Source: a virus. Taken from it: a DNA stretch of 24,043 bases. The DNA lies in the IMG/VR virus record IMGVR_UViG_3300029893_000070, positions 1-24,043 of that record. One strand, written 5' to 3'. A program made the position numbers and the translations under genes. Under the pieces are notes generated by a model. That model was not told the origin of the DNA. It did not search any database and saw nothing but the letters and a program-made list of their open reading frames with translations. This document shows, in pieces, positions 1-23,005 of the stretch. Each line of letters opens with the position of its first letter. The stretch's first letter is position 1.

Positions 1-876
1 GTTGTGTTGCCAGAAGCTTGCCCGCAAAAGGCTGCCGGCGTGCCGGAACCTCGGCCTGCCGCCGTCATGCTTATAGGCTGTCCGGTAGGTCCGGCAGCCG
101 GGAATGATTTCCGGGCCTACCTGCACCGCCGCAGTCAGCGCCGGCATGCCGTCGCGCAGGCGGCCGGACTGGTAAAAGGCTTTGCCGTCATGTTTTACCC
201 CGTAAGGCGCTCCGGTGTGCAGCAGGATCGGCCCGGCGGCTCCATCTTCGGCTTGCCATGCGGCAGTTATCGCTTGCTGCTCCGTGAACACCAGGCGGTC
301 GCTCATGGCCAACTCCAGGGTTAGGGCGGCCAACTTGGAGTGAGAGGCCTTAACCTTGTTTATGGCGGCCAGCAGGGCCTGGCGCTCGGCGGCCGCATAG
401 TCCTTGCCGCCCTCTATGCCCATGAAAATCTTGAACTCCGCCCACCGGACGCCGCCCTGGTGCCTGGCCGCCCCATTGTATGAGTTCTGGCCGTTGTGCA
501 GGGGGGTTACCACGCCGTCTTTGAACAGCTCATGGATGCGGGCCTCCGGGTAGCCCATCACCTTCAGCACCGCCACCAGGCCCGGATTTGTGCCGCCCAG
601 GGCATAGGTCTGGTAGGCCGCTTTCAGGCGCTGGCGATAGGATTCATCGCTTTCTCCGGGTAATCTGGAAATACCCCTGTCCCTGCCATGCAGGTCCAGA
701 GCCGGCCCTGTGGCCGTATCTAAGAGCCAGGCCCGGCGCACTTTGAAGATGGCCTGCTTCAGGTCGTCCAGACTTACGCCCAGAGCCTCGGCCCAGCGTT
801 CAATATCTGTTTTTATCCCGTCCGGCCGCCGCAAAAACCCCGGCAGCAGGCTTAAAATATAATCCTTGAAGTTCAT
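1..876 (-). CDS. Baseplate/tail protein, P2 gpI / Mu gp48-like, partial at left edge
   Basis: An open frame starts with ATG at 876 and runs 292 codons off the window edge with no stop. It begins MNFKDYILSLLPGFLRRPDG. Residues 1-190 resemble the P2 gpI / Mu gp48 (YmfQ) group, which joins the baseplate wedge to the tail fibre; residues 81-115 (YRQRLKAAYQTYALGGTN, then GYPEARIHEL) are typical. From about residue 191 the protein continues into an extension with HDG-type motifs (KHDGKAFYQSGRLRDG and YKHDGGRPRFRHAGSLLR), the style of repeat seen in some tail-fibre proteins. The gene begins one base after the baseplate J stop codon, which fits the Mu order J then gp48. A second possible start lies at 306 (ATG with GGAG six bases upstream). 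The fold call is family recognition by eye; the function of the extension is unknown. Confidence 0.8.
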   Translation of the reverse strand, partial: MNFKDYILSLLPGFLRRPDGIKTDIERWAEALGVSLDDLKQAIFKVRRAWLLDTATGPALDLHGRDRGISRLPGESDESYRQRLKAAYQTYALGGTNPGLVAVLKVMGYPEARIHELFKDGVVTPLHNGQNSYNGAARHQGGVRWAEFKIFMGIEGGKDYAAAERQALLAAINKVKASHSKLAALTLELAMSDRLVFTEQQAITAAWQAEDGAAGPILLHTGAPYGVKHDGKAFYQSGRLRDGMPALTAAVQVGPEIIPGCRTYRTAYKHDGGRPRFRHAGSLLRASFWQHN

Positions 877-18900: not shown

Positions 18901-19215
18901 TCAAGCCATTTCCTCTAACTCGAACAGCCTGATCTGGTTGCTCTCGTCCGGCCGCTCAGCCAGTATCTTCCTGACCCAGGCCTCGGTAAGGCCGTATTTC
19001 ACCGCCAGCTCCTTATGGTTGCCGCCGTTGAATTCCTCCCTGATCTTCTTGTCTCTGATTAGCTTCAGGGTGCTATCCAGTTTTGCAAAGTACAGGGTGG
19101 TGCCCTGGAACTCCTCCGCCAACTTCATGGTGTGTTCCAGGCCGATGAATGAAGTCAGCTTCCTGTAAGGCTCCGGCAGCACTTCGGGGTTTAGTTCTTT
19201 CATCCACTCTTCCAA
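18901..19215 (-). CDS. mor: Mor-family transcription activator
   Basis: The 104-aa protein matches the Mor/C activator family of Mu-like phages. The N-terminal half is the dimer part (YRKLTSFIGLEHTMKLAEEF, GTTLYFAKLDS); the C-terminal helix-turn-helix is at about 66-92 (FNGGNHKELAVKYGLTEAWV and RKILAERP). Mor turns on middle or late transcription with host RNA polymerase. The first codon is TTG at 19215 with AAGGAGG eight bases upstream; an internal ATG at 19203 is too far from that site. It ends 60 bases before a terminator and the late operon, exactly where the switch should be. Confidence 0.92.
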   Translation of the reverse strand: MEEWMKELNPEVLPEPYRKLTSFIGLEHTMKLAEEFQGTTLYFAKLDSTLKLIRDKKIREEFNGGNHKELAVKYGLTEAWVRKILAERPDESNQIRLFELEEMA

Positions 19216-19258: not shown

Positions 19259-19681
19259 TCAAGGTGCCGCCTGCTCCTCTTGCCGTTCGGCCAGCGCCTT
19301 GAGTCCTTCGATGATCTTCCCGGCCTGGACCAGGGTCAACCAGCGGGGATGGTCAACCTTGGCGTATTTCCTGATGAAGCCCTGCAAGCGCTTGGGATTG
19401 TCGTCCCAGCCCAGGTCTTTCACCAGTTTGTTGATCATCCAGAGTTGCTTCCTGGTGGCCATGACCGTCCTCTTGCCGCCGCGCCCCGCCGTGGCCTGGG
19501 GCCGCCTGACCCGCCGCTCCAGGTCGTCTATCACCAGGACGGCTTCCCGTTTGGTCAGATCGGAGATGTGCTCCTTCCTGGTCAGGCCGTAGACCACATC
19601 GTGCAGCAGGTCATCGTCCAGCTTCAGTTCCCTGGCCACCGCAAAAATCTTCCTCCTTTGTGCCGCCGTCATGTTTTCCAC
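19259..19681 (-). CDS. gemA: GemA-like regulatory protein (Mu gp16, DUF1018)
   Basis: The 140-aa protein has the DUF1018/GemA layout: MTAAQRRKIFAVARELKLDD at the start, then LLHDVVYGLTRKEHISDLTK, and a C-terminal ATRKQLWMINKLVKDLGW helix region. GemA of Mu modulates host gene expression and DNA topology during growth. It stands before mor, as in Mu (gp16 then gp17). A GTG at 19681 is used, with AAGGAGG about seven bases upstream; the ATG three codons later is too distant from it. Length is close to Mu gp16. Confidence 0.9.
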   Translation of the reverse strand: MENMTAAQRRKIFAVARELKLDDDLLHDVVYGLTRKEHISDLTKREAVLVIDDLERRVRRPQATAGRGGKRTVMATRKQLWMINKLVKDLGWDDNPKRLQGFIRKYAKVDHPRWLTLVQAGKIIEGLKALAERQEEQAAP

Positions 19682-19746
19682 CGTCAGCCCTCCTTACAAG
19701 CCTTCGCTGTCGCTCAGGTTCCAGATTACAGTTTTCAGACTACAGA

Positions 19747-20670
19747 CTACAAGACAAAAGCGGCGCGGAAGCCGAGGCCGATGCTGATGTCCGTGGCCGA
19801 CGGCGGATAGAACAGGTGGAGGGCGAATACCGAACGGGCGTAGGACCCGTTGCTCCAGTCCCCGCCACGCAGAGCCGCGCGCTCACCTTCCACTCCGGCC
19901 CAGAAGTAATCCGTGATAGTGTCGTCAACCGGGTACAGGGCCAGCTCCTTCAGGATGTCCGGCACATCTATGTCGGCCTCCAGGGCGTTGAAGCGGCACC
20001 CGTTCCAGCTCCCCTTCGGTTTGTTCGTGGTGAGCATCAGCCCGCCTTCCGTCTCGGAGTATTTCAGCGTTTTGCCGTCCACTGTCACCGTCTCCCACCG
20101 ATCCGTGCGCCTGGCGGCGTTGTTGTCCGGGACGATCTGCAGTTCTCCGTTCAGCAGCCGCACCCCGGAGCACCACTCCCAGACATTGCCGCACAGGTCG
20201 AAGATGCCGTCCCGCGTGTGGTCGTGCGCCCAGGTGTCAGGGCCTGAGCCGGTCAACACCTTGCAGTCGTCGAAGCAAATGCCCTTTTCGTCCGGGTGGT
20301 CGATATTGGAACCCCAGTCATTGTTCCCGCGCGGCAGGGTGCCGTTCTTCTTCGACCAGAGCGCCAGTGCTGCCCATTCGGCGTTCGTCATCAGGTGCCA
20401 GCCTGGGCCTTTGAGTTCGCAGGCGGCGACCGCCTCGTCAAAGGTCACATTAACCGCCGGCTCCTGGAACGGAAGGCTGTAGGCCCTTTCGTTCACTATG
20501 ATGTTCTGGTACTTGCTGATGAACAGCTCGTCCTTCTCGACGCCATCCACAATAAAGGCCGAATGAATTTTGTCCGGTCCTCCCGGTATCACGTCCGAAA
20601 CCCGGAACTTCGGAATTCTCACCATAATGCTGGGCTTGCCCGCGTCATCGTAAATCAGAGCGTTCGACAT
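19747..20670 (-). CDS. C-type lectin / FGE-fold protein, likely DGR variable protein
   Basis: The 307-aa protein is of the SUMF1/FGE C-type-lectin type that diversity-generating retroelements mutate. Visible parts are an N-terminal strand region, WHLMTNAEWAALALWSKKNG (91-110), LPRGNNDWG, GNVWEWCSG (161-169) and the final RGGDWSNGSYARSVFAL with GLGFRAAF. The catalytic Cys of FGE enzymes is absent from that C-terminal part, so it is probably a ligand-binding, non-enzymatic display protein. The ATG at 20670 has GGAGG about seven bases upstream. It is not next to the tail genes; it sits between small early genes and gemA. No reverse transcriptase or template repeat was found in the window. An FGE-like protein not tied to a DGR is the alternative. 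Confidence 0.85.
   Translation of the reverse strand: MSNALIYDDAGKPSIMVRIPKFRVSDVIPGGPDKIHSAFIVDGVEKDELFISKYQNIIVNERAYSLPFQEPAVNVTFDEAVAACELKGPGWHLMTNAEWAALALWSKKNGTLPRGNNDWGSNIDHPDEKGICFDDCKVLTGSGPDTWAHDHTRDGIFDLCGNVWEWCSGVRLLNGELQIVPDNNAARRTDRWETVTVDGKTLKYSETEGGLMLTTNKPKGSWNGCRFNALEADIDVPDILKELALYPVDDTITDYFWAGVEGERAALRGGDWSNGSYARSVFALHLFYPPSATDISIGLGFRAAFVL
19750..19869 (-). other. Candidate variable region (VR) of a diversity-generating retroelement
   Basis: The last 40 codons (residues 268-307) follow the VR design RGG-x-W-x-NG ... FAL-x-L ... GFRAA. Many codons at the positions expected to vary are NNC/NNT (GAC, AGC, TCC, TAC, CAC, TTC, TAT, ATC), as expected from AAC/AAT template codons, while the fixed frame residues are typical. 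The segment ends in a GC-rich stretch next to the stop, like an IMH, and is followed by short repeats (AGTCTG twice) that could form structure. The template and RT are not in this window. Confidence 0.6.
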
Positions 20671-20705
20671 AATTTAACCTCCGTTCGTTTTTTAATAAGG
20701 GGCGG

Positions 20706-20945
20706 CTATTTCACCGTCACCGCCACCCAGATGTCCTTTTCCCTGGCCAGCACCGCCTGGTGGCGGCTGCCCACCAGCTTCAGCCTGTACTTGCCGTCCC
20801 GCTGCCTCTTGGGCCGGCGCACTTCCAGGCTCCTGGTCACCCAGGCCCGCTGGGCGGAAGCGGGGGCGGTGCCTACCCGCTCCCGGTAGCGTTCCTGAAA
20901 GTGTTCCGTGAGAATAACCGTGATTTGCCTGATCTGTCGCCGCAC
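20706..20945 (-). CDS. Small basic hypothetical protein
   Basis: A 79-aa protein from GTG 20945, chosen because AAGGGGGTG lies about six bases upstream and the gene begins 13 bases after the previous stop. It reads RRQIRQITVILTEHFQERYR, then RSLEVRRPKRQRDGKYRLKL, and ends in VAVTVK; it is strongly basic with a TEHFQERYRERVG motif common in small phage proteins of unknown role. A longer reading to 21020 would overlap the small membrane gene with Trp/Pro-rich shadow residues. No function can be stated. Confidence 0.65.
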   Translation of the reverse strand: MRRQIRQITVILTEHFQERYRERVGTAPASAQRAWVTRSLEVRRPKRQRDGKYRLKLVGSRHQAVLAREKDIWVAVTVK

Positions 20946-20958
20946 CGCCGGCACCCCC

Positions 20959-21066
20959 TTAAGGGAGCCAGCCCCAGTACCTGGCCACCACCAGGGCGGC
21001 CACAAAATACCCGGCGACAAAGCCGGTGAAGATATAGGCCAGGGCCTCCGCCATCTTATTCCGCAC
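20959..21066 (-). CDS. 35-aa single-span membrane protein
   Basis: A small frame from GTG 21066 to TAA 20959-20961 reads MRNKMAEALAYIFTGFVAGY followed by FVAALVVARYWGWLP. One membrane segment covers residues 9-28. AAGGAGG lies eight bases before the GTG, and the gene fits tightly between its neighbours (14 bases before, 13 after). Such miniproteins are frequent in early phage operons. No known family was recognised. Confidence 0.6.
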   Translation of the reverse strand: MRNKMAEALAYIFTGFVAGYFVAALVVARYWGWLP

Positions 21067-22007: not shown

Positions 22008-22223
22008 CTAAAGTCTTGCTGTGCCTGCCCGTGCCGTCCGGAGTAGGCAGTTAAACCTTTTCTCGGCCGCCGTCAGTTCCAGGACGGCCACCTCCACGAA
22101 GTCGCCCTCGGCGTGATTCAGCCTCGCTTCGGCAGCCCTCACGGCCCGCAGGGCGTCCTCGAACTCCTCCTTTGTGACCGGCGGCGGGTATTGCGCCGCC
22201 CTTTTCCGTCGCAATAGCTTCAC
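22008..22223 (-). CDS. DUF2508/YaaL-like small helical protein
   Basis: The 71-aa protein begins MKLLRRKRAAQYPPPVTKEE and continues with a helical hairpin (EDALRAVRAAEARLNHAEGD, then VLELTAAEKRFNCLLRTAR). The pattern of a helix, a short acidic turn and AAEKRF-x3-LLR resembles DUF2508/YaaL of Firmicutes and phage relatives. The start is GTG at 22223, sharing bases with the DnaC-like stop (GTGA). Function is unknown; it is clearly part of the replication gene string. Confidence 0.68.
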   Translation of the reverse strand: MKLLRRKRAAQYPPPVTKEEFEDALRAVRAAEARLNHAEGDFVEVAVLELTAAEKRFNCLLRTARAGTARL

Positions 22224-23005
22224 CTTTTACCCCCTTTCCGGTAGTCCGGCCCGTCCACCCGCACCAGGTGGCACATTTCAAACAGCCGGCTGGTGATCCG
22301 CTCCCAGCCCGGCAGCTTCTCCAGTTCCTCCAGCTCCAGGTTGGAAGTGATGATGGTGGGCAGCATTTCCCCGTACCGGGCGTTGATGATGAGGTACAGG
22401 CGCTCCGTCACCCACTCGGTGTTCCGCTCGGCCCCCAGGTCGTCCAGGATCACCACGTCCATGGTCTTCAGAAGCTCCAGGCGCTCCTGGGCCTCCTGGC
22501 CGGGGCCGGCCTGGGGCCGCAGCAGGTCCATGATCTCCGGGACGCTCCCGCATATTCCCGGCACACCCCTGGCCAGGAGTGTGTTCAGGATGCCATAGGC
22601 CAGGTGGCTTTTGCCCGTGCCCGGCGGGCCGACGAAGCAAAGACCGTTTTTATTCTCCTGGCGCAACGCCTCGAACTGCTCCGCGTACCGGCAGGCGATT
22701 TTCCAGGCTCCTTTTTGGTAGGTGGAGTCGAAGTCCTCCAGCCGCCGTTCCCGGAAGCGCCGGGGTATCCTGGCCGTCTTGAACAGCCGTTCCAGCCTGG
22801 CCTGCTCCTTCCGGGCGATAGCGCAGCGGCATTGCCGCATCCTTTCGCCGTCCTCGTCCCTCACAAACACCCAGCCGCCGCCGTCGCACTCGTTAAAAGG
22901 GCATGCCGGTTTCGTCGCTTCCGTCGATGTAGTGGCTCCGGTATTTGCCTTGACCGTAGCCGCCACGCGCCGGGTGATCTCCCCCAGGTTTTCCACCCGT
23001 TTCAC
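22220..23005 (-). CDS. DnaC-like replicative helicase loader (AAA+ ATPase)
   Basis: The 261-aa protein has an N-terminal linker, a possible four-Cys zinc site (C35, C40, C59, C61), then the DnaC/IstB-type AAA+ core: FVGPPGTGKSHLAYGIL with Walker A at 126-133, VVILDDLGAE Walker B at 184-193, sensor TIITSN at 217-222 and SRLFEM with an arginine finger near 240. It should load the host replicative helicase at phage DNA. The start is GTG 23005, inside the DnaD-like gene, giving an overlap of about 113 bases; a second GTG lies three codons on. In Mu the ATPase in the early region is the target-DNA protein B, but the motifs here are of the DnaC type. Confidence 0.9.
   Translation of the reverse strand: MKRVENLGEITRRVAATVKANTGATTSTEATKPACPFNECDGGGWVFVRDEDGERMRQCRCAIARKEQARLERLFKTARIPRRFRERRLEDFDSTYQKGAWKIACRYAEQFEALRQENKNGLCFVGPPGTGKSHLAYGILNTLLARGVPGICGSVPEIMDLLRPQAGPGQEAQERLELLKTMDVVILDDLGAERNTEWVTERLYLIINARYGEMLPTIITSNLELEELEKLPGWERITSRLFEMCHLVRVDGPDYRKGGKR

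Follow-up and report, generated by a model that had tools for sequence, protein, structure and literature searches.

The locus described here raises the question of what a DGR target does away from the tail genes, and what diversifies it when no reverse transcriptase (RT) lies nearby. Discussions of phage DGRs usually take the targets to be virion host-receptor proteins. The DNA that we analyzed (hereafter, the window) is a linear virus record of 24,043 bp, taken in full as stored, and ends inside a baseplate gene. An initial annotation, made from the letters alone, had proposed that gene 19747-20670 encodes a DGR-diversified protein. It cited the C-terminal motifs, a lectin/FGE body and variable codons that are mostly NNC/NNT, and it placed the gene between early genes and gemA, far from the tail, with no RT in the window. 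The reading that we favor is that the gene would be an accessory DGR target, diversified in trans and with a non-tail role; we put the probability of this statement as a whole at about 0.5.

Results

A TaqVP-like protein encoded among early genes

The window features that define the position of the gene are listed below.

1-876, minus strand: baseplate/tail gene, cut by the record end; a sibling contig runs on from here into a DGR cassette
18901-19215, minus strand: Mor/C-like late transcription activator gene (phrog_836/532)
19259-19681, minus strand: GemA-like gene, downstream neighbor (phrog_286)
19747-20670, minus strand: putative DGR variable protein gene, second target, in the early region (307 aa; FGE-type C-type-lectin fold; PF03781, phrog_2889, 5VF4)
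20706-21020, minus strand: 104-aa ORF, upstream neighbor, conserved in sibling G052
22220-23005, minus strand: DnaC-like helicase loader gene, early operon (phrog_50)

The ORF at 19747-20670 is intact, and a GGAGG ahead of its ATG provides a strong ribosome-binding site. It lies outside the tail cluster, between the 104-aa ORF (which has no Pfam match) and gemA, and not beside Avd and RT. The terminase and portal genes are downstream of the gemA-mor side, the DnaC-like gene is upstream of the target, and the tail genes are at least 13 kb away, which agrees with the placement first proposed.

The C-terminus of the 307-aa protein reads RGG-D-W-S-N-G...FALHL...GFRAA, and its lectin/FGE body is likewise as described at the outset. 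The protein matches PF03781 (FGE-sulfatase; Pfam, 1.2e-10), phrog_2889 (3e-109) and, by sequence, the DGR variable protein TaqVP of a Thermus aquaticus prophage (5VF4, 7e-52; PMC6328139). An AlphaFold model, built from an alignment of the window and locus proteins, has a mean pLDDT of 93.5 and a TM of 0.93 on TaqVP 5VF4, and in this model the variable region (VR) is carried by a C-type-lectin fold. The fold is common to nearly the whole chain, with 35% identity in the fold alignment, and both proteins have a C-terminal VR of about 40 residues that ends in an invariant strand. By eye we saw no signal peptide, and we propose a soluble protein with an FGE-type C-type-lectin fold and a randomized binding face.

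A DGR cassette in a sibling contig

We searched the 24-kb record for an RT and found none, as the initial annotation had noted. Because the record is truncated within the baseplate gene, this absence is uninformative. A search with the baseplate gene recovered a sibling contig, IMGVR_UViG_3300029892_000126 (L196), which overlaps the window end with ~97% nucleotide identity over 663 bp. Beyond the overlap, it carries the following features.

L196:2173-3711: tail target, 512 aa
L196:3783-4127: Avd (PF22296, 5e-32)
L196:4143-4258: template repeat (TR) core, aligned with the window VR
L196:4422-5483: RT (RVT_1)

L196 continues from the same baseplate gene into the DGR, and the missing DGR of the window is therefore expected just past its end. 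We infer that the window's own phage probably carries a cassette of the L196 type, and the early suggestion of a DGR elsewhere in the phage agrees with a TR, Avd and RT that continue where the window stops. A second RT-domain ORF is present on a sibling contig (L268 10672-11394; G051 20704-21039). We considered it as a DGR RT and set it aside, as by eye it looks more like a group II intron RT fragment.

Adenine-specific match between the VR and the sibling TR

Two features of the VR are needed for its comparison with the TR.

19759-19880, minus strand: VR core, codons about 263-304, aligned to the TR at L196:4143-4258
19771-19782, minus strand: 6-nt tandem duplication in the VR, ATCGGC CTCGGC, absent from the sibling L196 TR

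Relative to the L196 TR, the window VR is changed at 12 of 24 adenines and at 2 of 92 other bases (hypergeometric p 2.9e-8). A copy differing at adenines, with RT and Avd nearby, is what the initial annotation had suggested looking for; its range for the repeat, 19750-19869, was nearly right, the core being 19759-19880. Ten codons differ from the L196 TR at adenines, nine of them NNC/NNT, in keeping with the expected codon pattern, and the remaining one is CTG. The GC-rich end of the VR is identical to the TR over 17 nt. The tail VR of L196 itself has 15 A changes from its own TR and no others. Compared with seven TRs in a matrix, the window VR differs from the L196 TR at 2 non-A positions and from the six others at 17-24. 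The TRs of siblings L193 and L194 were also tried and fit worse, with 9 and 13 non-A mismatches, respectively. The ARS and PPS residues of the window protein are encoded by the L196 TR and occur in none of its scaffold relatives; the window VR therefore follows the local TR, not scaffold descent. An earlier inference of VR degeneration from these same motifs was dropped, since the sibling TR holds both.

The two non-A changes are adjacent (GG>TA). The second copy of the 6-nt duplication differs at an adenine, and the duplication may have arisen when the error-prone reverse transcriptase slipped. An exact search of viral contigs with 26 nt of the window's 3' VR end, including the duplication, gave no match; thus, none of the contigs searched yielded a TR with the duplication. 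The two non-A changes and the duplication require either a slightly different TR of the phage's own or later mutation. We found the window's own gene in no other strain. We hold with high confidence that 19747-20670 is a DGR target, and the sequence comparisons make it very probable that its own phage's DGR diversifies it in trans. The adenine-specific match and the TaqVP-type fold thus bear out the original proposal of a DGR-diversified protein.

VRs of early targets in related phages

Most window-like early targets match the TR of their own phage. The early VRs of L030, L081, L083 and the Faecalibacterium phage FP_Lagaffe (gp40, NC_047911) have no non-A mismatches with their own phage's TR; the TR matching L081 is in L093, at a distance of about 22 kb within one contig. 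The early VR of L004, for which no TR of its own was found, has no non-A mismatches with the L030 TR, and the Dulem virus 37 early VR shows 4 with its own phage's TR. With foreign TRs, the early VRs show 10-25 non-A mismatches. The early VR of L003 (L003:2530-3531) differs from its phage's TR in L047 by 12 A and 9 non-A mismatches; judging from these, the VR may be decaying and the target may have escaped from homing.

A comparison of strains, also suggested at the outset, could be made between L030 and L004, whose early genes share 93.7% identity in the part outside the VR. Within the VR, differences fall at 18 of 26 TR-adenine sites and at 1 of the 79 remaining sites (p 3e-13). The initial annotation would have been contradicted by a lack of TR and RT together with conserved variable positions in related strains; we found a TR and RT in the sibling and divergence at these positions in the relatives.

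A clade of window-like targets in early regions

We built a tree of early and RT-adjacent targets with the VR left out and with the labels "early" and "tail" fixed beforehand from gene context and RT distance. In this tree, which leaves out targets that were neither window-like nor close to an RT and includes some short early contigs (L004 and L082), 11 early targets fall on one side of a branch and 65 RT-adjacent targets on the other (support 100/99, 200 of 200 bootstrap trees). The two longest early branches, Lagaffe and Dulem, join each other, a grouping that the tool warns may be false.

Early placement was read from neighboring genes, and expression is presumed to be early. The order gemA-target-amidase-mor occurs in L081, L001 and L068, and that of the window is target-gemA-mor. 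L030 and FP_Lagaffe share the order target-exonuclease-Gam-ERF-SSB. L003 has ATPase-target-RecT-MBL with SSB further on, L005 is similarly ordered, L082 has a related gene set, and the second target of Dulem virus 37 sits in a non-tail region. On the evidence of these sequences, the window-like proteins are a clade of second targets in the early regions of several phage types.

Two further observations concern homologues of this family. A frameshift splits the window-like early target of L068 (L068:8525-9492), which lies between gemA and mor; this is either a pseudogene or a sequencing error. Another subfamily, L137-L143, comes from Lachnospiraceae and other Clostridia, with no Avd or RT detected within 2.5 kb; several members share a C-terminal tail past the VR, FRSALYLKDWKLVTDLL, and L140 has two homologues in tandem. 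These are possibly further remote DGR targets.

N-terminal differences and an empty site

RT-adjacent targets have an extra N-terminal stretch, e.g., MSNFDDMKLAVEALSGGKN, ahead of a shared PSIM motif, which lies at an offset of at least 27. The offset is 12 in the window and 12-13 in most early targets, and the window ORF has no start codon further upstream that would add an N-terminal extension. The N-terminus of the L083 early target is even shorter, and the early target of Dulem virus 37 has a long N-terminus of a different kind. We assume that the extension docks the tail targets.

Sibling G052 shares the gene order and has both a tail target and an RT of its own, but lacks the early target gene. 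Its identity to the window is 90% for TerL, 87% for Mor, 82% for the DnaC-like protein, 73% for the 104-aa ORF and 65% for GemA. In G052, gemA directly follows the 104-aa ORF, which defines the missing segment.

19693-20705, minus strand: segment absent from G052, approximate extent; holds the target gene, a CTG array and a hairpin

Because the corresponding site in the sibling is cleanly empty, we consider gene 19747-20670 accessory; the empty site reflects either gain in the window phage or loss in G052.

Candidate cis elements past the VR

Two candidate elements follow the VR within this segment.

19715-19749, minus strand: five spaced CTG words, at and past the stop codon; common to most VRs of the family
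19701-19718, minus strand: imperfect hairpin CCTGAGC-GACA-GCGAAGG, candidate DGR target-site hairpin (5 of 7 pairs, GRNA loop; by eye)

CTG arrays with a spacing of 7-12 nt follow the VRs of 7 of 10 early and 48 of 65 tail targets, against 0 and 0.5, respectively, expected from composition-keeping shuffles; none was seen after TRs. The words are often AATCTG. In L006, L008, L046, L042 and most other loci, the array lies just past the VR, and translation runs through it in L030, L003 and Lagaffe, where it forms part of a C-terminal extension. The array is possibly a DGR cis signal, and we know of no description of one after VRs.

A GC-rich hairpin with a 4-nt loop after the VR, and a rule for its loop, have been described for phage DGRs (PMC3240598). 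Many VRs of this family are followed by such a hairpin. That of the window is imperfect, and a search for a perfect-stem hairpin past the window VR found none. The VR of L019, whose record carries an RT, is also followed by a similar imperfect hairpin.

Discussion

We propose that 19747-20670 would be an accessory second target in a Mu-like phage whose opposite end holds the TR, Avd and RT together with the tail target. By the enzymology of known DGRs, the RT would copy TR RNA while introducing errors at adenines, and the resulting cDNA would replace the VR of 19747-20670 in trans, at a distance of roughly at least 20 kb from the cassette. Homing is probably still current in the window's phage. 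The product would act on a variable partner, either within an infected cell or a lysogen or as a free protein. Candidates are a host defense factor, a rival phage or a surface ligand, and the protein would not be the main tail receptor-binding protein. The initial annotation had left open whether the gene encodes a displaced receptor or a protein with a non-tail role. We favor the latter, because the clade resides in early operons, the N-terminal extension is missing and the gene is absent from a sibling phage; granted that the gene is a DGR target, we rate a non-tail role as slightly better than even.

The same gene could instead encode a second virion receptor-binding protein that merely lies in the early region, with both targets on tails widening the host range. 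Homology between early and tail targets covers most of the protein, and one TR serves to diversify both. Those phage DGR targets whose function is known are receptor-binding proteins (PMC3240598), and one report proposes a "doubling" of this kind for Lagaffe (PMC11792537). However, an N-terminal extension like that of the tail targets is missing from nearly all early targets, the clade stays in the early regions of unlike phages, and G052 manages without an early target. We regard a virion role as a serious possibility, though on balance doubtful.

Two other explanations concern whether the VR is still, or was ever, fed by a DGR. The two non-A changes, the 6-nt duplication and the imperfect hairpin could mark a former target that no longer receives cDNA, its VR a fossil of past homing and its protein fixed. 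Yet the non-A identity to the L196 TR (90/92) is not below the identity of the two phages elsewhere (about 97%), the ORF is intact, a comparable hairpin follows the VR of the RT-carrying L019 record, and A-directed change is recent in L030 and L004; we consider such a fossil improbable. An ordinary FGE-like enzyme or lectin that resembles DGR targets only in fold would explain the Pfam FGE-sulfatase match, but the best match in both sequence and fold is a DGR variable protein. In TaqVP, positions of the hFGE triad fall within the VR, where D348 and N351 correspond to hFGE Ser333 and Cys336 (PMC6328139); by motif match, the window protein has D271 and N274 at the triad positions, not Ser and Cys. 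The adenine-specific TR/VR match in effect refutes a protein with no DGR tie, an explanation to which we give almost no credence.

Several known systems can be set beside the accessory trans target proposed here. The DGR of the Bordetella phage BPP-1 shares adenine-directed retrohoming and a hairpin past the VR (PMC3240598), but its Mtd, unlike the window protein, is a tail receptor-binding protein encoded in the cassette itself and is trimeric with extra domains (PMC6328139). The tail target gp50 of the Bacillus phage BalMu-1 (NC_030945) is homologous and has a C-terminal VR; unlike the window gene, it lies directly upstream of Avd and RT and has the N-terminal extension. FP_Lagaffe gp40 belongs to the window's clade and lies in the early region, ahead of exonuclease and Gam. 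It differs in a C-terminal extension of roughly 100 residues, and its phage has an IS30-type transposase.

Two-target DGRs and distal second VRs are already published. Two-VR phage DGRs are reported for Lagaffe_CP, CP11 and Lelie (PMC11792537) and for tentaclin phages (PMC10743442); in the accessible part of the former, both Lagaffe_CP targets are treated as Mtd-like and early placement goes unremarked. Four gut prophage species have a distal second VR near counter-defense genes (PMC12629997). These second VRs are likewise far from the RT cassette and among non-structural genes, mostly in Bacteroidota phages and beside methyltransferases. For early-region or Mu-like second targets, the literature searched gave only general two-VR reports; it contained no account of the clade, of its placement in the early operons of different phage types or of the difference at the N-terminus. 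The largest DGR survey states that remote targets escape its pipeline (PMC8144416), and such targets are therefore probably under-counted.

If our reading is correct, the reach of adenine mutagenesis extends to a protein whose action precedes virion assembly or takes place outside it. The clade offers a concrete gene set for testing a non-tail role, including FP_Lagaffe gp40, for which there is a cultured host. More generally, and as a tentative view that we hold at somewhat less than even, temperate phages may maintain old, separately evolving accessory DGR targets in early operons, working in the cell or as free proteins, such that one retroelement would diversify both the tail tip and an early binder directed against variable host defenses or rival phages.
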